A stretch of 64,000 nt of DNA from Planctomycetota bacterium (GTDB taxonomy: Bacteria > Planctomycetota > UBA1135 > GCA-002686595): positions 1 to 64,000 of the forward strand of contig JAJDEW010000121.1 in NCBI GenBank assembly GCA_029259595.1, given 5' to 3'. A model generated the notes under the pieces. That model was not told where the DNA came from and ran no database searches. It was given only the letters and a program-made list of their open reading frames with translations. Positions 11,052-64,000 of this stretch are shown in pieces. Both the position numbers and the translations under genes were made by a program. The first letter of the stretch is position 1. Every line of letters begins with the position of its first letter.

Positions 11052-12092
<1,041 letters not shown>

Positions 12093-12104
12093 GCGGACGA
12101 CGAC

Positions 12105-13016
12105 GTGGCCGACGCCGTTCTCTCGAAGAGCCTGGATCCCGCCGTCCTCGACCGTCTCTCGGGCCTAGCGCTCGTGGCGCGGACGGTGGTCGAGGGCTTC
12201 ATGGCGGGGCACCATCGCTCTCCCCACAAGGGCAGCTCCGTCGAGTTCGCCCAGCACCGGCCCTACGTGCCCGGTGACGAGCTACGGCACGTCGACTGGA
12301 AGATCTTCGCGCGCAGCAACCGCTTGGTCGTCAAGGAGTTCGTCGAGGAGACGAACTTCAGCTGCCATCTCCTGCTGGATGCGAGCGAATCGATGGCCTT
12401 CACGTCCGGCACGTGGACCAAGTTCGACTATGCGCGTTGGTGTGCCGCTGCCCTCGGACACCTCGTCGTGCGCCAGCGTGACGCAGCCGGACTCGTGCTC
12501 TTCGATCGCGACGTGCGGGACAAGGTTCCGCCGTCGAACGGCACGCACCAGATCAACTCGATCGTGCAAGCGCTCGAGGGCGCGGTCCCGACCGGTGAGG
12601 CGCGCGTCGGCGACGTTTTGCACTGGCTGGGAGGCAAGCTCAGTCGGCGCGGCATCGTGGCGATCTTCTCCGACTTCTTCGACGACCTGGACAAGCTCGT
12701 CAGCGGGATGCGGCGCCTGACGCACGCCGGGCACGAGCCGATCCTGTTCCAGGTGCTCGATCCGCAGGAGATCGAGTTCGACTACGAGCGCCTCCTGCGC
12801 CTCGACGGACTCGAGGACAGTGGCCGCATCAAGGTCGATCCCAAGGCGATCCGCGCCGCCTACCGTGAGGAGATGCAGCGTCACCAGGAAGAGCTGAAGC
12901 GCCACGCGCGCAACCTCAGCATCGACTACGTTCAGCTGACGACGTCGACGTCGCTCGACGTCGCTCTGTCCACCTACCTGGCCCGACGCGCCGCCCGAAC
13001 GCGTTCGAGGAGCTGA
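12105..13016 (+). CDS. DUF58 domain protein
   Basis: 303 residues, GTG start. The DUF58 core is clear: YVPGDELRHVDWKIFARSNRLVVKEF (shown in part; about residues 49-75), then a von Willebrand-like LLLDASESM in which D-x-S-x-S (about 89-93) supplies a metal site. No membrane segment, so it is probably a cytoplasmic partner of MoxR. It ends 3 bases before the next gene. The moxR-DUF58-vWA order is the standard arrangement of this system; its client is not known. Confidence 0.92.
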   Translation: MADAVLSKSLDPAVLDRLSGLALVARTVVEGFMAGHHRSPHKGSSVEFAQHRPYVPGDELRHVDWKIFARSNRLVVKEFVEETNFSCHLLLDASESMAFTSGTWTKFDYARWCAAALGHLVVRQRDAAGLVLFDRDVRDKVPPSNGTHQINSIVQALEGAVPTGEARVGDVLHWLGGKLSRRGIVAIFSDFFDDLDKLVSGMRRLTHAGHEPILFQVLDPQEIEFDYERLLRLDGLEDSGRIKVDPKAIRAAYREEMQRHQEELKRHARNLSIDYVQLTTSTSLDVALSTYLARRAARTRSRS

Positions 13017-13019
13017 GCC

Positions 13020-15293
13020 ATGCCCTTCGAAGGCTTCATCCATCCTGGGCTCGCCCTCGGAACGCTGCTGGCTTCCGTTCCGCTCCTGATTCATCTCCTG
13101 AACCGCCAGCGCCACCGCCCCATGCAGTGGGCCGCGATGCGCTTCGTGATGGCGGCCTACAAGCGCACACGGCGCCGAGCGCAGATCGAGAACTTGATTC
13201 TCCTGCTCCTGCGCATGGCCGCGGTCTTCCTCTTCGCTCTGGCCGTGGCGCGGCCCTTCACCGGCAAGAACAGCCCGCTCGCTCCACTGACCGAGAGTCG
13301 GCGTGACCTCGTGCTCGTGCTCGACGGCTCGGCTTCGACGGGCTATCGCGAGAACGTCGAGAGCGTCCACGAGGCCATCGTCCGTCGCGGTCGCGAGATC
13401 CTCGCCGACCTCGATGGCACGCGCGGGGATCGTGTGCGTTTGATCCACGCCGGCAACCACCCGCGCCTGCTCTCCGCGCGTTCACCCGAAGACGCACTGG
13501 TCGCGCTCTCGACACTCACCGTTCCGACCGCCGAGCCGCTGCACCTCGCTTCGGTCCTGGGCGAGGTCGTCGACCTGGCGGAGAAGGAGGCGGCCGGAAC
13601 CGGCCAGAGCGCGCTCGAAGTGCGCCTGCTCTCCGATCTCCAGCGTCGCTCCTTCACCGACGACACGCTGGCGCGGGCCGCGGACGTCGATCTGGCCGAG
13701 CTGGCTGCCGCCCCGCCGATCCGGCGCGCGCTGGACCGCCTGCACGAGCTCGGCGTGCTGGTCGTCGTCGAAGACCTCGGCCCCCCGACCACGAACCCGC
13801 CCAACATCGGCATCGAATCGATCGAGCCGCTCGGTCCCGTCCTCGGAGTCGGAACGACCACGGAGATCGCGGTTCGCATCGGCAACTATGGCACGAGCGG
13901 CCGCTCCGGAGTCCGCGTGGCGCTGTCGGTCAACGGTCAGCGTCTGCCGAGCCAGAAGGTCGATGTCGGCGCCGAGTCTTCGATGGAGGCCATCTTCCCC
14001 GTCGTCGTTCGCGACGGTGGGTACGTGACGCTGGAAGCCGAGCTGGAGGGCGATCGCCTGGCGATCGACGACGAGCGCTCGCTCGTTCTCTGGGTGCCCC
14101 CGGCGATCCGCGTCCTCCTGGTCAACGGCGAACCCGACGACGAGATCGACAAGGACGAGGTCGGCCTTCTGCGCGCGGTCCTGGATCCGCCCGACGACGA
14201 CATGTCCTCCGGCTTCGCGTCGAGCGGCTCTTCGCCGTTCCAGGCGCGTGCGTTGACTTCGATCGCCTTCGCGGGCTCGGACGAAGAGCTCGCCGACTAC
14301 GACGTCATCGTCCTCGCCAACACGGGCCCTCTGTCGGGACGCATCGTCGACGAACTCGAGAGCTGGACCGCGGCCGGTGGTTCGTTGATCCTCACTCTCG
14401 GAGAGCGCTACGCGAACGCGTCCGCGCTCGAGTCGTTCCAGGCGCGGATGTGGCGCAGCGACGGAAGCGGGCTCCTGCCCGCGCGCCTCCTGCGCGCCGT
14501 ACGCGTCCCCCAGCGCGGCGAGCGCTACCATCGCGCTTCGGACTTCGACGGCGGACACCCCGCCCTGGCGTTCTTCGCGGACGAGCGCTGGCGCCCGCTC
14601 TTCACGGAGGTGCCCTACTACGGCTTCGTCGCGTCGGAACCCCTCGAAGACGCGCGCGTCCTCGCACGCCTCGATGACGCGGAAGCGAGCCCCCTGTTCA
14701 TCGAACGGGAGTACGACCGCGGTCGCGTCTTCCTCTGGACGTCGACGATCGACTCCGCCTGGAACCGCGTGCCCGAATCACCCGGGACCTTCATCCCGTT
14801 CATCCACGAGTGGTTCCGATACGCCGGCCGTCGGCCCGACGTCGAGCGCAACCTCGCCGTTGGCGCCACGTTCTCGGCCGAGGTCGCGAGCTTCCCCCGC
14901 AATCCGGTCGCCGTGTCGCCCGACGGCAGCCGTCGGACCCTCGACGGCGAGCCCGAAGAGGTGATCGAAGGCATCTGGCGCCTCGCGCCGATCTCCGACA
15001 CGGACACGCCGGGTTCCTGGCGCATCGAGCTGGAAGGCGCCGACGACGTGCGCTTCAGCGTGCAGCTCGCCGAAGGCGAGGGCGACCTCGCGCGCATCCC
15101 CGGTGCCGAGCTCGAGTCCTCCCATCCGGCCTGGCACGTCTATGACCACGGTCGCGACGAATCACAGTCGGCAACGGAATCCGAAGCCGATCGCGGTGAA
15201 CTGTGGCGCACGCTCGCGCTGCTCACGCTCGCCTGCCTCATCCTCGAAACTCTCTGGGCCGCCTGGATCGGCCGTGGCAGGAGGCTCACGTGA
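13020..15293 (+). CDS. BatA-type membrane vWA protein
   Basis: 757 residues. The N-terminal BatA region has a membrane hairpin (GLALGTLLASVPLLIHLLNR..., then NLILLLLRMAAVFLFALAVARPF). A von Willebrand A domain follows with a complete metal motif in LVLVLDGSAS (about residues 97-106). The middle looks like a beta-rich CARDB/amidotransferase-like module (RVLLVNGEPDD), and one membrane helix closes the protein (TLALLTLACLILETLWAAW). The bulk should face the periplasm. The final codons overlap the next gene in GTGA. Confidence 0.85.
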   Translation: MPFEGFIHPGLALGTLLASVPLLIHLLNRQRHRPMQWAAMRFVMAAYKRTRRRAQIENLILLLLRMAAVFLFALAVARPFTGKNSPLAPLTESRRDLVLVLDGSASTGYRENVESVHEAIVRRGREILADLDGTRGDRVRLIHAGNHPRLLSARSPEDALVALSTLTVPTAEPLHLASVLGEVVDLAEKEAAGTGQSALEVRLLSDLQRRSFTDDTLARAADVDLAELAAAPPIRRALDRLHELGVLVVVEDLGPPTTNPPNIGIESIEPLGPVLGVGTTTEIAVRIGNYGTSGRSGVRVALSVNGQRLPSQKVDVGAESSMEAIFPVVVRDGGYVTLEAELEGDRLAIDDERSLVLWVPPAIRVLLVNGEPDDEIDKDEVGLLRAVLDPPDDDMSSGFASSGSSPFQARALTSIAFAGSDEELADYDVIVLANTGPLSGRIVDELESWTAAGGSLILTLGERYANASALESFQARMWRSDGSGLLPARLLRAVRVPQRGERYHRASDFDGGHPALAFFADERWRPLFTEVPYYGFVASEPLEDARVLARLDDAEASPLFIEREYDRGRVFLWTSTIDSAWNRVPESPGTFIPFIHEWFRYAGRRPDVERNLAVGATFSAEVASFPRNPVAVSPDGSRRTLDGEPEEVIEGIWRLAPISDTDTPGSWRIELEGADDVRFSVQLAEGEGDLARIPGAELESSHPAWHVYDHGRDESQSATESEADRGELWRTLALLTLACLILETLWAAWIGRGRRLT

Positions 15294-57016: not shown

Positions 57017-60000
57017 ATGATAACGGGTTCTGTGGAAGCACCCGAACCCCGATTCGAGCGCCGGAAGACCCTGGGAACCGGAGCCAGCGCGCACGTCGAG
57101 CTGGTTCGCCTGCTGGACGAGCATGGCTCGCTGCCCGAAGGGACCGAGGTCGCCCGCAAGACCTTGCACCCCAAGCTGCGCGAGGACCCGGCCGCGACGC
57201 GCGCGCTCTTCTCGGAGGCGGACATCGCAGCCGCGGTCCGCGACCCGTCCCTGGTCCGCGTCCTGCACCGCGGCAAGGGCCCGGACGGTCCCTATCTGCT
57301 CTTGTCCTTCGTCGAAGGGCGCAGCCTGCGCGAGCTGATCGAGACGGACGGCCCGCTCCCGGAGCCCGCGGTTCGCGCCATCGCCCGCGAGCTGGCCGGC
57401 GCCCTCGCCACGCTCGCCGAGGCTGGCTACGCGCACGGGGACCTGAAGCCGGAGAACGTGCGCCTCGACGCGGCGGGACGCGCGGTCCTGCTCGACCTCG
57501 GCTTCGCCCGTCGACTCGAGGACGCGAGCGCCGGCCAGCCCGGCGCGGGCAGCCTCGCCTACCTCTCGCCCGAGCGCGCCCAGGGCGCTCCGCCCGGCCC
57601 CGAAGCCGACGTCTTCGCCCTCGGGGTCCTGGTCTACGAGCTCGCGACCGGCGTCCACCCCTTCGGCTACATTCCACAGGCCGGCGCGCGCCCACGACGC
57701 ATCGCGAGCTCGCTCGGCTTCGGCTCGTCGAGCGGCGAGCTCCTGCGGCGTTCGATCGAGATTCCGGGCGCGGACGAGCTCCTGGCGGCGATCTCGCGCG
57801 CGAAGGTCACGTCCCCCTCCCACTTCGCTCCCGAGCTCTCGCCGTTCTTCGATGCCCTCCTGGAGGAGATGCTCGCGCGCCCGCCGCAACTGCGCCCTGG
57901 CGCGCGCGAGCTCGTCGAACGGCTCGAGGAGGCCGAGGCCAGCGCGTGGTGGCGACAACACATCGACCCCGAGACGCCGCGCGAGGGCCCGACCCAACGC
58001 GAGGGCATCTACCTCACCCCCATGATCGGGCGAGAGCGCGAACTCGCGCTCCTGCAGGCCGCGCTCGAACAGGTGAGGACGCTCGATCCGCACGGCGACC
58101 GCCAGAGCTCGGTCGTCTGGCTGAGCGGGCCGGAGGGCAGCGGCAAGTGGCGCCTTGCCAGCGAGTTTGCCGCGCGCGCGCGGCGCAGTTCGGCACCTCC
58201 GCTGTATCTCTATGCGCGCTGGAACGAACCGGCCGAAGCCCTGCCGGCCGGCCTGCTCCTCGTCCTCCTGGCACGCTACCTCCTGCTCCCGACCGGCACC
58301 GCACCCGGTGAGCGCGAGGAAGAGCTCCTGCGCGAGCTGTTGCCTCCCGCGCTCGTACGAACGCTCCTGCGCGCACTGGACCCCGAGCGCACCGCGGCCA
58401 CGGAGGAATCCGTTCCGGCCGCGCTCGGCGCCTGGTTCGTCGCGCTCGGCAAGCGCCGTCCCCTGATCCTCTTCCTCGACGACCTGCACCTCGCCGGCGA
58501 GGAGTCGCTCGGCGCCATCTCGCACGTCCTCGAAGGTCTCGACTCGACGGCGACGCTCTGGATCCTCGGGGTTCGCGAGGATACGCCGCCGGCCCAGGCC
58601 GAGCTCCTCGATCGCTTGCGCCGCGCCGTGGACCACGCGCTCGACACGGGCGGCAGCGTGTCGGGGAATCGGATCTCTCTGGCGCCGCTCGGCGAGGCGG
58701 ACATCCAGGCGCTCGTCAACGAGACCTTCGAGAGCAGTGCCCCCCGACTGCGGTTGGGCACGGTCCTGTGGGAGAAGAGTCGGGGCAATCCCGGGCTCTT
58801 CGCCGAGACGCTGCGCGAGATGCTGCGACGCGGACATGCAGCCCCCGATGAATTCGGTCAGCTGAAGCTCTTCATTTCCCCCGACGAGATCCCGACACCG
58901 CGCTCCGTGGATCGCTTGATCGCCGAGCGCTTCGCAGCGCTGGAAGGCGACGACCGAACCTGGCTCGAACGCCTCTCCGTGGTCGGTGGGAAGATCGCTC
59001 CCGCCTTCCTGGTCCGTGCCTTCCCCCCCACGACGCGAGCGGAGATCGACACGGTCCTGGCGGGGCTCGTTCGCAGGGGCTGGCTCGTTCCACGCGGTGA
59101 CCGTTACCGGTTCGATCGCCCCGCCTTGCGCGAGGCCGTTTACCGCTCGCTCGCGCCGAGCCGCCGGCGGCACTTGCACCTCGCGGCCGCACACGGGCTC
59201 GAGCTGGAGGCCGCGAACCAGGCCGCCTCCGAGGACGACTTTCAGCACGCCTTCCACCTGCGCGCCGCTGGGGAACACGAAGAGCTCCTGGCCAACGTCC
59301 TTCCCCAGATCCAACGGCTCGAGCGTCGGGCTTCCTCCCACCGCATCGCCACGCTCGCCCGCTGGGGTCTCGAAGCCCAGGACGCGCTCGGCACGAATCG
59401 GCCCGAGGAGCGCGCGATGCTCCTGCGTTCGGCTTGCGACGCCGCCAACCGGCTCGGACGCCGCGACGAGGAGCGCCGTCTGCTCGATCGGATGATCGAC
59501 CTCTCGGCCGAGGTCGATCGCCCGGCCGACGCGGCTCTGCTCTACCTTCTCCACGGGCGTTACGCGATCGGCACCGGCCAGTACGGGCTGGCGCGCGGCA
59601 TGCTCCGCAACGCCAGCCAGCTCGCGCACGAAGCGAAGAGCCCAATGCTCGAGAGCGAGGCCCGCCGGCGCCTCTCGCGCGTCCAGGCCCAGATCGGCGA
59701 ACTGGCCGAGGCACGCCGCAACGCGAAGCGCGCCATCGCGCTCGCCGTCACCGAAAACCAGGAGGCCCTGGGCCTCATCGCGCTCGCACACGCGAAGCTG
59801 CTGGACGATGGGATCGAGGACGCGCTGCACGCGCTCGAGCGCGCCGGTGAGCTCATGCGGCAGGCGGCCGAACCACGCATCGGCATCCTGGCGACGCTGC
59901 ACCTCATGCGCGCCCGCGTGTGGCGCTCGTCCGGGCGCCTCCTGCGGTCGGCGCGTTCCGTGCGCCGGGCGATTCGCTTCGCAAAGCGCTCCGGCGAACG

Positions 60001-60595
60001 CTCCCTCGAGGCCGAAGCGCGCGCCCGACTCGGCATGCTCTACGTCGACTTCGAGCGCTTCGACGAGGCCGAAGCCCACCTGCGTGACGCCCTGTACCTG
60101 GCCGAAGAGATCGAGGACCGGCGCGGCAAGATCCTGGCTCGACTCTGGCTCGGGCTGCTCCTGTGGGAACGCGACGACCCCGGGGCCGAGGCCTCCGTAC
60201 GGCGCGCCACCGAGGAGGCCCGCGAGATCGCTTTCTACCGCGCCGAAGCCTTCGGCTTGGCGCTCCTGGCACGCATCCACATCCTGGAGGAAGGCTCCGA
60301 GCGCGTCCCGGACGCGGAAACGGAGAGCATCTCCGCCATGGAACTGCTCGACCGCCACGGCGCGGAGGTCGCGGACCGCATCATGGTCGCGGGAACACGC
60401 GCGCTGGTGCTGCGCCTGCAGGACCAGGAACGCAAGGCCGTGGAGATCGAACGCAAGCTCGAACGTCACGTCGCGCGTGGCAACCGGCGCTTGAAGGATG
60501 TCGACCTGCGCAAGCGCCAGCGCGATTACACGCGGCGCCTCACGCGCGCCGTGCTCTCCCAGGAGGGGCCCGTCTACCCCCACCAGGGAAACTGA
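57017..60595 (+). CDS. PknK-like Ser/Thr kinase with ATPase and TPR domains
   Basis: 1192 residues. Kinase domain about 15-310: GTGASAHV glycine loop, K48, HGDLKPEN (140-147, with D142, K144, N147), DLG (160-162) and LSPERA, consistent with an active kinase. Next an ATPase of the PknK/LAL type (about 335-700): P-loop GPEGSGKW at about 371-378, with Trp where Ser/Thr is expected, and Walker B LILFLDDLHLA. The C-terminal 450 residues are TPR-like helices. No transmembrane or DNA-binding domain. Its stop and that of the convergent next gene share the palindrome TGATCA. Confidence 0.85.
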   Translation: MITGSVEAPEPRFERRKTLGTGASAHVELVRLLDEHGSLPEGTEVARKTLHPKLREDPAATRALFSEADIAAAVRDPSLVRVLHRGKGPDGPYLLLSFVEGRSLRELIETDGPLPEPAVRAIARELAGALATLAEAGYAHGDLKPENVRLDAAGRAVLLDLGFARRLEDASAGQPGAGSLAYLSPERAQGAPPGPEADVFALGVLVYELATGVHPFGYIPQAGARPRRIASSLGFGSSSGELLRRSIEIPGADELLAAISRAKVTSPSHFAPELSPFFDALLEEMLARPPQLRPGARELVERLEEAEASAWWRQHIDPETPREGPTQREGIYLTPMIGRERELALLQAALEQVRTLDPHGDRQSSVVWLSGPEGSGKWRLASEFAARARRSSAPPLYLYARWNEPAEALPAGLLLVLLARYLLLPTGTAPGEREEELLRELLPPALVRTLLRALDPERTAATEESVPAALGAWFVALGKRRPLILFLDDLHLAGEESLGAISHVLEGLDSTATLWILGVREDTPPAQAELLDRLRRAVDHALDTGGSVSGNRISLAPLGEADIQALVNETFESSAPRLRLGTVLWEKSRGNPGLFAETLREMLRRGHAAPDEFGQLKLFISPDEIPTPRSVDRLIAERFAALEGDDRTWLERLSVVGGKIAPAFLVRAFPPTTRAEIDTVLAGLVRRGWLVPRGDRYRFDRPALREAVYRSLAPSRRRHLHLAAAHGLELEAANQAASEDDFQHAFHLRAAGEHEELLANVLPQIQRLERRASSHRIATLARWGLEAQDALGTNRPEERAMLLRSACDAANRLGRRDEERRLLDRMIDLSAEVDRPADAALLYLLHGRYAIGTGQYGLARGMLRNASQLAHEAKSPMLESEARRRLSRVQAQIGELAEARRNAKRAIALAVTENQEALGLIALAHAKLLDDGIEDALHALERAGELMRQAAEPRIGILATLHLMRARVWRSSGRLLRSARSVRRAIRFAKRSGERSLEAEARARLGMLYVDFERFDEAEAHLRDALYLAEEIEDRRGKILARLWLGLLLWERDDPGAEASVRRATEEAREIAFYRAEAFGLALLARIHILEEGSERVPDAETESISAMELLDRHGAEVADRIMVAGTRALVLRLQDQERKAVEIERKLERHVARGNRRLKDVDLRKRQRDYTRRLTRAVLSQEGPVYPHQGN

Positions 60596-61021
60596 TCAGC
60601 CACGCGCGCGCCGGCGCGAGATCTGGTGCACGACGTAGGCGACGATCCAAAGCAGAGAGCTCACGCCGTGCGTCCAGACAGCGGCGGTACGGGACCACTC
60701 GCTCGAAGCCGTCTGGACGACATAGCCCGAGACGATCATCGGCACGAAGACGCCGAACAAGACGAGTCCCGTCGAACGCCGAATCGCGAAGCCCGCGCGC
60801 ACGCGCTTCCAGACATGATCGCGCCAGAACAGTGCGCACGAGAAGACGAGCAGCGGCGCCAGCAGGATGTGCAGGTGCTGGAGATCCGGCTGCCAGGCGT
60901 GGTTCGTGATCGCGTAGGGATCGTCGGACTCCGCGAAGTAGCACATCCAACCGTAGACGAGGCCCGTGCCGCCGACGAGGGCGGTCGCGGAATGGGAGAG
61001 CCAGGCCTCGCCGCGGGTCAC
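60596..61021 (-). CDS. Four-helix histidine-rich membrane protein, possible cytochrome b
   Basis: 141 residues, four membrane segments (about 9-29, 50-70, 83-103 and 112-135). Histidines near helix ends (H10, H49, H51, H118, H132) could ligate b-type heme, as in DUF4405-like proteins. Overlaps the upstream FMN-binding gene by 4 bases, and that gene plus apbE suggest a redox role. The heme assignment is inferred from helix and histidine positions only. Confidence 0.55.
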   Translation of the reverse strand: MTRGEAWLSHSATALVGGTGLVYGWMCYFAESDDPYAITNHAWQPDLQHLHILLAPLLVFSCALFWRDHVWKRVRAGFAIRRSTGLVLFGVFVPMIVSGYVVQTASSEWSRTAAVWTHGVSSLLWIVAYVVHQISRRRARG

Positions 61022-61608
61022 TTCTTCGCGACGAGGGTCGAGAGCCGCCCTTCGTCCCAGGCGTGGACCGCGAGCACGCGACGGACCGCGTCGGTCGTGG
61101 CGCGCGAAGTCAGGGTAGCACCCGCCACGCCCCGGATTCCGGTCTTGAGGCCCAGCTCGGCATCGAGACCGCGCCCGATGAACTGGCCATACCAGCCTTC
61201 GCGCGGCAGGTATTCCTCCGGCTCACCGAAGGCGAGCACCTCGATCCGGCGAACCTTCGCCTGCGGGTCCACGACGATCATCAGCGTCTCGCGCAGGGTG
61301 CGAACGCGGTGCAGATCGAAGTAGGCGTAGCCCACGAGCTTGCCTTCCTTGCGCGCAACGTAGGGCCGAAAGACCCCGCCCAGGAGCTCGACCTTGGCGA
61401 GCTTCTCGATCGTCTCACGCTCCTCCTTCGAGAGGTAGATCGTGCGCTTTTCGATCTCGCACTCGGGGAAGGCGAGCTCGAGCGCCTCCGGCATCGTGAG
61501 GAAGACCTTGCTGCCGCCGGCCGCCAGCGGTCCGGCGACGGCGCCCTGCGCGCGGAGCGCGAAGATGCCGAGCAGAACGAGGGAGAGGAGGATGTTTCGA
61601 AGGTGCAT
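61018..61608 (-). CDS. Secreted FMN-binding domain protein
   Basis: 196 residues from the ATG at 61608, chosen because the signal peptide (LLSLVLLGIFALRAQGAVA) starts right there. A 21-codon extension to 61671 is less likely. FMN-binding domain with the attachment region VAGATLTS (161-168). In RnfG/NqrC the Thr of the GAT triplet carries FMN through a phosphoester bond made by ApbE; Thr165 corresponds, though Ala replaces the usual Ser/Thr before GAT. apbE is two genes upstream, supporting covalent flavinylation. Confidence 0.85.
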   Translation of the reverse strand: MHLRNILLSLVLLGIFALRAQGAVAGPLAAGGSKVFLTMPEALELAFPECEIEKRTIYLSKEERETIEKLAKVELLGGVFRPYVARKEGKLVGYAYFDLHRVRTLRETLMIVVDPQAKVRRIEVLAFGEPEEYLPREGWYGQFIGRGLDAELGLKTGIRGVAGATLTSRATTDAVRRVLAVHAWDEGRLSTLVAKK

Positions 61609-61635
61609 GTGGAGTGTCCTAGCTGTCCATCCGTC

Positions 61636-61669
61636 GCTTCCGCGAGACCTCGAGGGGCCTCGCGGAAGC
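61636..61669 (-). terminator. Strong 11-bp hairpin between porin and FMN-protein genes
   Basis: GCTTCCGCGAG (61636-61646) and CTCGCGGAAGC (61659-61669) form a perfect 11-bp stem with a 12-nt loop that itself contains the palindrome CCTCGAGG. It lies 44 bases past the porin stop and 28 before the FMN-protein start. It could terminate most transcripts after the porin or set mRNA decay so the two halves are expressed differently. No U-tract follows on the minus strand. Confidence 0.55.
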
Positions 61670-61713
61670 AAGGGATGACGGCGCGATGTCGCAGGAGCTC
61701 TTCAGCGGACTGC

Positions 61714-62979
61714 CTAGAAAACGAAGCCCATGGAGACCCGTACCTCGTCGTTGGCGAGGTCCCAGTCCTGGAATTCGAGCTTGAAGACGACCTGGTCGAT
61801 CGGCTGGACGTTGAGGCCCAGCGTCACGATCGATTCGTCGTTGGCCGGGCTCGAAGCGAAGCCGGTCGGAACGTCGGCCTGGGTGTCGATCCCCTCGTAG
61901 CGCACGTACGGCGTCACCGCGGCGCGGCTCTCGGGGGCGATGAGCGCCAGAATGTCGTAGCCGAGCTCGACATAGTGGCCCTCCAACGTCTCCCCCACCG
62001 AAGCGGCACCGACGAGGCCGCCGGCCGCGTTGAGAGCCGCGACGTCGTCGACTTCGGCCTGGGCCACGAGGGCGCGTACCGTGAAGCCGCGGTAGCGGAA
62101 GTCCGCATGGGCCTCGACGATCGTCGTGCTGGTGTCCCCGAGGCCGGCCTGGTTCTGCCCCGCGTCTCCGAAGTAGGCCGAAGCGCCGAGTACGAGGCCG
62201 GCAACGCCGCTCCAGTCGGTGCGCGCGACCAGCGCGAGATCCTCGGCCAGCGCTTCGCTACCAGCCTGGCGTCCGCCACGCAGGCCCGAGGCCGAGAAGC
62301 CCATCGCGTCGAAGCCGTTCATCAGGTAGGCGCGGTACGCGAAGTCGCCGGCCTCACCATGCACGCCGACGCCGTTCTCCCGCCAGGTCGAAGGCAGAAT
62401 GCGACGCTCGGTCTCCGGGCGTCCGACCGGAAGGAAGGTCGTCGGCTCGTGCAGCTCGTTCACGATCCCCATCGGTGTGAGCAGCAGCCCGGCGCGCAGG
62501 GCGACGTGTTCGCAGGCGAGCCAGTCGAGATAGGCGAATTCGGCCGACACGCTGCCGTTTTCCCCGGTCGAACCGTGCTCGAACTCGATCTCCGAGTTGA
62601 ACAGCCAGTTCTCGTCGAACTTGTATCCGAAGTAGAGGACGGTGCGGAGCGCGTCGAACTCGCTGGATCCCTTTCCGTTCGGATTCGAGTAGACGGCTTC
62701 GCCGTAGCCTCCGATCGAGAGGCCCTGGTTCTTGTTGTAGATCTTCGAGGCCGCCGGGCCCAGGCCGGGGCGCGAGGCTCCGATTGGCACGAACACGTCG
62801 CCGAAGGTGAGTCGCTCCGACTCTTCTCCGAGCACGTCGATGCGAGTCTTGAGTTCCTTGTTTTCGAGCTCGAGCCGCTGGACGCGGGCCTCGAGGTCGG
62901 AGCCCTGGGCGTTCGCCGCCGCGGCCCCCACGACCGCGGACACGACCAGATACGGGGGGATGAGGAAGGATCGCTTCAC
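61714..62979 (-). CDS. Outer-membrane porin with N-terminal coiled coil
   Basis: 421 residues, GTG start. Signal peptide (PPYLVVSAVVGAAAANA), then a short coiled coil (DLEARVQRLELENKELKTRI, 20 residues) as in several planctomycete and OprO/P-like porins. About 16 amphipathic strands follow, and the last residue is Phe (VSMGFVF), the usual outer-membrane insertion signal. Its start overlaps the apbE stop by 4 bases. It may let small electron acceptors or flavins through (inference). Confidence 0.82.
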   Translation of the reverse strand: MKRSFLIPPYLVVSAVVGAAAANAQGSDLEARVQRLELENKELKTRIDVLGEESERLTFGDVFVPIGASRPGLGPAASKIYNKNQGLSIGGYGEAVYSNPNGKGSSEFDALRTVLYFGYKFDENWLFNSEIEFEHGSTGENGSVSAEFAYLDWLACEHVALRAGLLLTPMGIVNELHEPTTFLPVGRPETERRILPSTWRENGVGVHGEAGDFAYRAYLMNGFDAMGFSASGLRGGRQAGSEALAEDLALVARTDWSGVAGLVLGASAYFGDAGQNQAGLGDTSTTIVEAHADFRYRGFTVRALVAQAEVDDVAALNAAGGLVGAASVGETLEGHYVELGYDILALIAPESRAAVTPYVRYEGIDTQADVPTGFASSPANDESIVTLGLNVQPIDQVVFKLEFQDWDLANDEVRVSMGFVF

Positions 62980-63992
62980 GGATTCTCTTTCTTGGTAAGG
63001 AGGACACCCGGGTCCAGGATCGTCAGACGATCGACGATGCCGTCGCTCGCCCGGGCGTGGAGGGTCGTGCCGTTCGTCTCGAGCACGAGCACCTCGATGC
63101 CCGCGTTGCGCTCGGCAAAGTCGAGGGCCGCGTCCGGACCGAGGACATACAGCCCGGTCGAGAGCGCATCGGCGGTCGTCGCGTCGGGAGCCCAGACCGT
63201 CAGGCTGCCGAAGTCCGGAGCAGGGCGTCCGGTACGGGGGTCGAGCAGGTGACCGAGGCGCTCCCCGTCGACGACGATGCCGCGCTCGCCGTTGCCGCTG
63301 GTCGCGCACGACCCGGAACGGACTTCGAAACGAAGCACCGCGTGCTCGCGTTCGGTGGGGTGCGCCAGTCCGTAAGCCAACCCGGGGCCGCCGTCGCCCT
63401 CCGCGTGCGAGCCCGGTCGTGTCCACGTTGCGAGCTGCCCCCCCAGGTCGAGCGTCGCTCGCAGGACCGCCGGCTCGGCGCGCAACACGTCGAGGGCCGC
63501 GTCGAGACCGACGCCCTTGCCGAAGGCCCCCTCTTCGAGCACGAAGTCCGCGTGACCGCGGCGCGCCGTCCAGCCATTTGGGCCAGACTCGAGCTCGAGC
63601 GCTTCGATTCCCGGTGCCGCCGCAAGGCGCGCCAGGACCGCGTCCGAAGGACGCTCGCCGCCCCCGGTCCGCAGCCCCCAGGCCGTCACCAGGGCACCGA
63701 CCCCGGGATCGAAGGCGCCCTGCGTCCGGAACGCGAGCTCGCGCGCGCGTCCCAGATCCGCGGCCAGCGCGGCCGAGATCCCCACCGGCGTCGCGACCGG
63801 CGCCCGGTTGAGGTGCGCGAGCTCGCTCGCGTCACTCCAGGTGCTGAGCCTCGTCTCGACCGCTTGCAGGGCGAGCAGGGCGCGCTCGCTCGCGGCCAGG
63901 CCCGCGGCGCGGTCCGTGACCTCGAGCAGGAGCGCGAAGCTCGTCCCCATGGCGAACAGGCGTCGCTCGACCTCGACCGTCTCGTCCGACAC
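62976..63992 (-). CDS. apbE: FAD:protein FMN transferase
   Basis: 338 residues from the GTG at 63992; the window ends 8 bases upstream with no stop, so the true start (and any signal peptide) may lie outside. ApbE features: FAMGTSFALLLEV at the N-terminus, DPGVGALVTAWGLRTGGG, a Gly-rich DLGGQLATW, HLLDPRTGRPAP and TTADALSTGLYVLG. ApbE transfers FMN from FAD to a Thr of a partner such as the FMN-binding protein two genes downstream. Coupled to the porin gene. Confidence 0.92.
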   Translation of the reverse strand: MSDETVEVERRLFAMGTSFALLLEVTDRAAGLAASERALLALQAVETRLSTWSDASELAHLNRAPVATPVGISAALAADLGRARELAFRTQGAFDPGVGALVTAWGLRTGGGERPSDAVLARLAAAPGIEALELESGPNGWTARRGHADFVLEEGAFGKGVGLDAALDVLRAEPAVLRATLDLGGQLATWTRPGSHAEGDGGPGLAYGLAHPTEREHAVLRFEVRSGSCATSGNGERGIVVDGERLGHLLDPRTGRPAPDFGSLTVWAPDATTADALSTGLYVLGPDAALDFAERNAGIEVLVLETNGTTLHARASDGIVDRLTILDPGVLLTKKENP

Positions 63993-64000
63993 TCCCGCCA

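Follow-up and report, generated by a model that had tools for sequence, protein, structure and literature searches.

In a survey, approximately half of the genomes with ApbE flavinylation machinery were without any system characterised before (PMC8238504; repeated in PMC11334425). Among the systems already described, the MsrQ-like and PepSY-like ones (Meheust et al. 2021, PMC8238504) follow the same electron logic as the planctomycete locus analysed here, in that ApbE occurs with a heme-bearing membrane protein and with an extracytosolic protein that is flavinylated, whereas their membrane proteins belong to other families (of six and three helices) and no dedicated porin has been described for them. 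In a similar way, the flavinylation- or ferrosome-associated cytochromes of the DUF4405/FezC type (Huang et al. 2024, PMC11334425) are small transmembrane b-type proteins with conserved His pairs, encoded beside apbE. As described, however, DUF4405 comprises six helices, in contrast to the four helices of the present protein, which carries all four His in one chain; moreover, those systems are set apart by the porin and the FMN_bind protein of the present module, and DUF4405 was named for Proteobacteria and Firmicutes (PMC11334425), whereas the module occurs in other phyla. Envelope flavinylation is also a feature of the DUF3570/thioredoxin-like/ApbE system (PMC8238504), but in that case the protein that receives the flavin is DUF3570 itself, and in place of a cytochrome there are a thioredoxin-like protein and DsbD. 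The genome studied here also holds a cluster of this last kind, with DUF3570, thioredoxin-like and ApbE genes (L003, contig C79, ~11417-15247).

The individual components can be compared with other proteins. The best fold match of the membrane protein is the cytochrome b of [NiFe] hydrogenase-1 (HyaC; PDB 4gd3, 6g94), a diheme b protein that connects the membrane with a redox partner in the periplasm, as the proposed cytochrome would, but the identity is only 14-16% and the partner here would be an FMN_bind protein, not a hydrogenase. As for the porin, the OprP/OprO-type proteins (Porin_O_P) have the 16-strand barrel in common with it, although OprP displays an arginine ladder for phosphate and the conserved lumen positions of the present porin are mostly acidic. 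A porin inside an electron-transfer gene cluster is also found in Geobacter, where ExtI (PMC5877670) sits, unlike the one described here, with c-type cytochromes. Loss of ExtI lowers selenite and tellurite reduction, an effect for which its authors weigh both uptake and effects on heme proteins (PMC5877670); in ExtI there is a precedent for the reduction of a soluble acceptor falling when a porin is lost.

Porins are unmentioned in the main text of the two flavinylation surveys (PMC8238504, PMC11334425), whose supplements may list single clusters, and in a 2025 ApbE review, and no description of the four-gene set was found in the open literature. This agrees with the earlier note on this DNA, made by a model from the letters alone, which did not know the set as a described system. 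The conserved four-gene module is apparently undescribed, and would be a variant of flavinylation-based extracytosolic electron transfer. As such, it is a candidate for one of the uncharacterised flavinylation systems, with a complete and tiny parts list reaching from the inner membrane to the outer pore; it would extend the flavinylation-associated cytochromes by a protein of four helices, and connect covalent-flavin electron transfer with a specific channel of the outer membrane.

Organisation and recurrence of the four genes

The window, i.e. the whole stretch of 64,000 nucleotides of Planctomycetota DNA that was analysed, contains near its end the compact locus proposed in the earlier note, with all four ORFs in place on the minus strand (Table 1). 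The two gene overlaps on which that proposal leaned, apbE with the porin gene and the FMN_bind gene with the membrane gene, are both present as 4 nt (GTGA). Position 63992 is probably not the true start of apbE, since an in-frame ATG at contig position 64100, 100 bp past the window end, yields a full form of 374 aa and adds a hydrophobic N-terminus resembling an export-type signal.

Table 1. Features of the four-gene locus, in window positions unless noted
Feature	Position	Strand	Basis
apbE, FAD:protein FMN transferase, predicted exported	62976..64000, on to ATG at contig 64100	-	Pfam ApbE
Porin, predicted 16-strand outer-membrane barrel with N-terminal helix	61714..62979	-	AlphaFold2, Foldseek, Porin_O_P in relatives
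FMN_bind protein, predicted exported, predicted ApbE substrate	61018..61608 (ATG)	-	Pfam FMN_bind, motif
Thr165 codon, predicted FMN attachment site (GAT motif)	61114..61116	-	Alignment, motif count
Four-helix membrane protein (141 aa), predicted diheme cytochrome b	60596..61021	-	Invariant His, AlphaFold2, HyaC fold
His51 codon, helix 2, predicted periplasmic heme ligand	60869..60871	-	Invariant
His69 codon, helix 2, predicted cytoplasmic-side heme ligand	60815..60817	-	Invariant
His118 codon, helix 4, predicted periplasmic heme ligand	60668..60670	-	Invariant
His132 codon, helix 4, predicted cytoplasmic-side heme ligand	60626..60628	-	Invariant

Between the porin and FMN_bind genes, the minus-strand transcript would contain a long GC-rich hairpin (~61636-61669) with no T-run after it, and the whole intergenic region (61609-61713) folds at -54.3 kcal/mol, with a z of -4.5 relative to shuffles; the hairpin is perhaps a processing or expression-balancing element. 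The membrane gene is convergent with a plus-strand gene of the window (57017-60595), ending at the neighbouring base, which encodes a Ser/Thr kinase of 1192 aa that also has AAA and TPR domains. In a cluster some 10 kb upstream of apbE, genes for a multiheme c-type cytochrome, a cytochrome b and a Rieske protein adjoin, followed by a CRP-like regulator (L002:14693-18153, that is, contig C26:74693-78153).

The neighbourhood search that the earlier note had suggested was carried out, and gene order proved to be kept in three phyla. An independent scan of 84,980 species genomes, which used the FMN_bind alignment alone as query and was therefore blind to neighbouring genes, yielded 57 loci, distributed over Planctomycetota, Acidobacteriota and Bdellovibrionota. 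Together with the window's own locus, all four genes are present in 52 of 58, the exceptions being three loci without apbE, two with the FMN_bind and membrane genes at a contig start and one without the membrane gene. The loci fetched from relatives keep the order apbE, porin, FMN_bind protein and membrane protein, save at contig ends; in seven loci of the window's order apbE is not adjacent to the cluster, and all nine genomes of that order that were checked hold an apbE, most of them not beside the cluster. The 4-nt overlap between the FMN_bind and membrane genes recurs in 52/57 loci and that between apbE and the porin gene in 26/53. The recurrence of these overlaps and of gene order across three phyla is far above chance. 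Among the relatives, every genome with a strong FMN_bind match also gave porin and membrane protein matches (38/38), and a search with the membrane protein alone gave matches in 43 of 61 genomes, including the window's, whereas around a dozen relatives' genomes are devoid of all or nearly all of the genes. Altogether, the data support the view that the four genes constitute one functional unit.

In this regard, some of the genes are also found joined. FMN_bind and ApbE are fused in one frame of ~500 aa, between the porin and membrane genes, in four loci (L062-L065) that make up a divergent branch of the module with ApbE and its substrate in one chain, and frames of similar length occur in several more relatives with weaker matches. 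In two other loci it is ApbE and the porin that occupy a single open frame (L103:5683-7992, 769 aa, and L112:3128-5452, 774 aa), where the signal-like stretch of the porin is still visible mid-frame in L112 and seems worn down in L103. These two frames could be real fusions or assembly errors, the latter because each comes from a single metagenome assembly. The membrane protein of L121, which runs in frame into an amidohydrolase, was not accepted as a meaningful fusion. The genes that recur on the flanks (Kdo-kinase-like, RNA 2'-phosphotransferase-like, symporter, phosphodiesterase and kinase) do so in only part of the loci and are replaced in other lineages, and were thus left out of the module.

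The flavoprotein and the four-helix membrane protein

The apbE product matches its family (PF02424) with E=4.5e-50 and 171 bits, against a cut-off of 25.6, over domain positions 1-265 of 266, and the FMN_bind protein matches PF04205 with E=2.5e-6 and 28.5 bits, against a cut-off of 22. The flavinylation motif GA[T/S], preceded mostly by T, A or S, is present in 96 of 97 alignment rows, some genomes being represented twice. With the ATG at 61608 as residue 1, Thr165 falls on the T of GAT, so that the FMN site named in the earlier note is correctly placed; the secreted flavoprotein that it had paired with ApbE also holds, as a protein predicted to be exported and likely to be the ApbE substrate. 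It is the sole FMN_bind match of the genome, whose assembly is ~90% complete. A flavinylated complex of the Rnf, Nqr or NosR type was ruled out because this assembly holds no further FMN_bind subunits.

Taken as single sequences, neither the membrane protein nor the porin gave a meaningful Pfam match. The earlier note had described the former as a four-helix, His-rich protein, and the four helices are recovered in the AlphaFold2 model (pLDDT 94.2), while the description of its His needs refinement: only H51, H69, H118 and H132 are invariant in the 76 distinct sequences (76/76), as is G85, and H10, H41 and H49 vary among them. Of the invariant four, helix 2 carries H51 and H69 and helix 4 carries H118 and H132, giving the two conserved His pairs on two helices that are general to diheme cytochromes b. 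Since loop 70-82 and the C-terminus are positively charged, they would be cytoplasmic, placing H51 and H118 towards the periplasm and H69 and H132 towards the cytoplasm.

In the fold search with the model, all three top places went to the cytochrome b of E. coli hydrogenase-1 (E 0.07 and probability 1.00 for the best). Among relatives of the protein there are weak matches to prokaryotic cytochrome b561, and every entry listed by a profile search against the PDB is a cytochrome b, apart from one cytochrome b reductase, at scores that are not significant. DUF4405 (PF14358) is matched weakly by 11 of 41 relatives at E up to 1 (best 3.8e-4), and not by the window's protein, which stays below the Pfam cut-off; that family has six helices with four central His, and the window's protein, with four invariant His, has only four helices. 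From the invariant His, the model and the fold match we infer a compact diheme cytochrome b, and the heme that the earlier note had expected in this protein is accordingly rated as probable. A 929-aa protein encoded on the same contig (L131:10183-12972, contig C26:90183-92972) contains CXXCH c-heme motifs and TPR repeats, together with an N-terminal four-helix b-type-like region that weakly matches the membrane-protein profile.

The porin and the proposed path of the electrons

In the AlphaFold2 model of the porin (pLDDT 88.4), a long N-terminal helix precedes a barrel of 16 strands, and Foldseek related the porin to OmpU (E 7.3e-13) and OprP (5.0e-12), as well as to OprO and enterobacterial porins; Porin_O_P is matched by 27 of its 55 relatives. 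With sides assigned by hydrophobicity parity, clear in some strands and unclear in others, lumen-facing residues are better conserved than outward ones (mean entropy 1.24 vs 1.72). Loop 3, between strands 5 and 6 of the model, is the most conserved of the porin loops examined (1.09). The conserved charged residues of the lumen include E94, E130, E132, E134, E147, E201, D255 and H291 against R112, R162 and K400. We infer from sequence and model a cation-favouring, substrate-selective channel, which is the weakest step of the argument.

On the other hand, the porin may belong to the locus by association only, as a general nutrient channel left there by operon history, the redox unit being the cytochrome b, the FMN_bind protein and ApbE. 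No substrate-specific enzyme or transporter is consistently near, and the shared order could be block inheritance, with pairwise distances among the four proteins correlating at r 0.60-0.73. Such an origin is very unlikely in our estimate, given that the lumen and loop 3 are unusually conserved, that the porin accompanies every strong FMN_bind match and stays while flanking genes change between lineages, and that it has a frame in common with ApbE in two loci.

Heme proteins pass electrons through the outer membrane in MtrCAB and Cyc2, MtrB having 26 strands and Cyc2 being a cytochrome-porin fusion with a small barrel. The tight linkage of porin, FMN_bind protein and cytochrome, the precedent of Cyc2 and the frame of ApbE and porin in two loci would fit a comparable arrangement here, in which the FMN_bind protein would sit inside the porin or beneath it and hand electrons to an extracellular acceptor. 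Such a conduit is nevertheless quite improbable: with 16 strands and a conserved loop at the usual place of the porin constriction, the lumen is expected to be too narrow for the FMN_bind domain, and the c-heme motif CXXCH is absent from all four proteins, leaving no evident relay through the barrel. An MtrAB-type conduit, whose wide barrel encloses a multiheme c-type cytochrome, was rejected as first choice on barrel size. The OmpU/OprP-type barrel, the conserved loop 3 and the acidic lumen make the porin seem a solute channel instead, and, in the absence of CXXCH, it is more likely that an acceptor or donor enters through the pore. Hence, of the movement of electrons in or across the envelope suggested by the earlier note, the part within the envelope is supported, and the crossing of the outer membrane is not.

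We consider it somewhat probable that the diheme cytochrome b links the membrane pool to covalent FMN, and that this FMN exchanges electrons with some small solute let in through the porin. To judge from the protein families and the motif, the FMN_bind protein, in the periplasm, would receive its FMN at Thr165 from exported ApbE. In the membrane, His51 and His118 would hold a heme near the periplasm and His69 and His132 another near the cytoplasm, providing an electron path across the inner membrane along which the cytochrome most likely draws electrons from the quinol pool, a donor proposed by analogy, and delivers them to the covalent FMN. The FMN_bind protein would then reduce a small solute reaching the periplasm via the dedicated porin, whose acidic lumen points to a metal species or a cation. 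As the module encodes no separate terminal oxidoreductase, the path probably ends with the flavoprotein as its final enzyme. In the neighbourhoods of the loci, genes for an electron donor, a terminal enzyme or a transporter are not consistently near the module, so that donor, substrate and direction rest on analogy.

Every part of this path is in principle redox-reversible, none fixes its direction, and it has been noted that such systems could run backwards (PMC8238504), in which case a donor admitted by the porin would be oxidised by the FMN_bind protein, with the diheme cytochrome b passing the electrons to quinone. This reverse flow is regarded as unlikely, since a reductive reading has been given to most of the flavinylated systems described with a membrane cytochrome (PMC8238504, PMC11334425) and the module contains no dehydrogenase. 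A broader proposal, made only tentatively and with somewhat less than even confidence, is a new class of envelope electron-transfer system, present in three phyla and free of heme c, where a substrate arriving via a dedicated, specific and cation-favouring porin would be reduced by a minimal diheme cytochrome b together with a single covalently flavinylated protein.

Distribution across phyla

The named loci belong mostly to Planctomycetota, and most of the records behind the distribution are metagenome bins. In a search within the phylum, strong matches were confined to the window's order, and weak ones elsewhere lay mostly in long unrelated frames. Eight rows of the tree are from Acidobacteriota and three from Bdellovibrionota, and in this quick tree, with its open forks, they fall among the planctomycete sequences, which makes transfer of the module between phyla plausible. 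The Planctomycetes bacteria Pla86 and Pla163, whose records are titled as complete chromosomes, carry the module, and the question of the substrate is thus directly testable. In three acidobacterial loci (L070, L072 and L109) a second, distant ApbE-type gene is found just behind the membrane gene, on the opposite strand.
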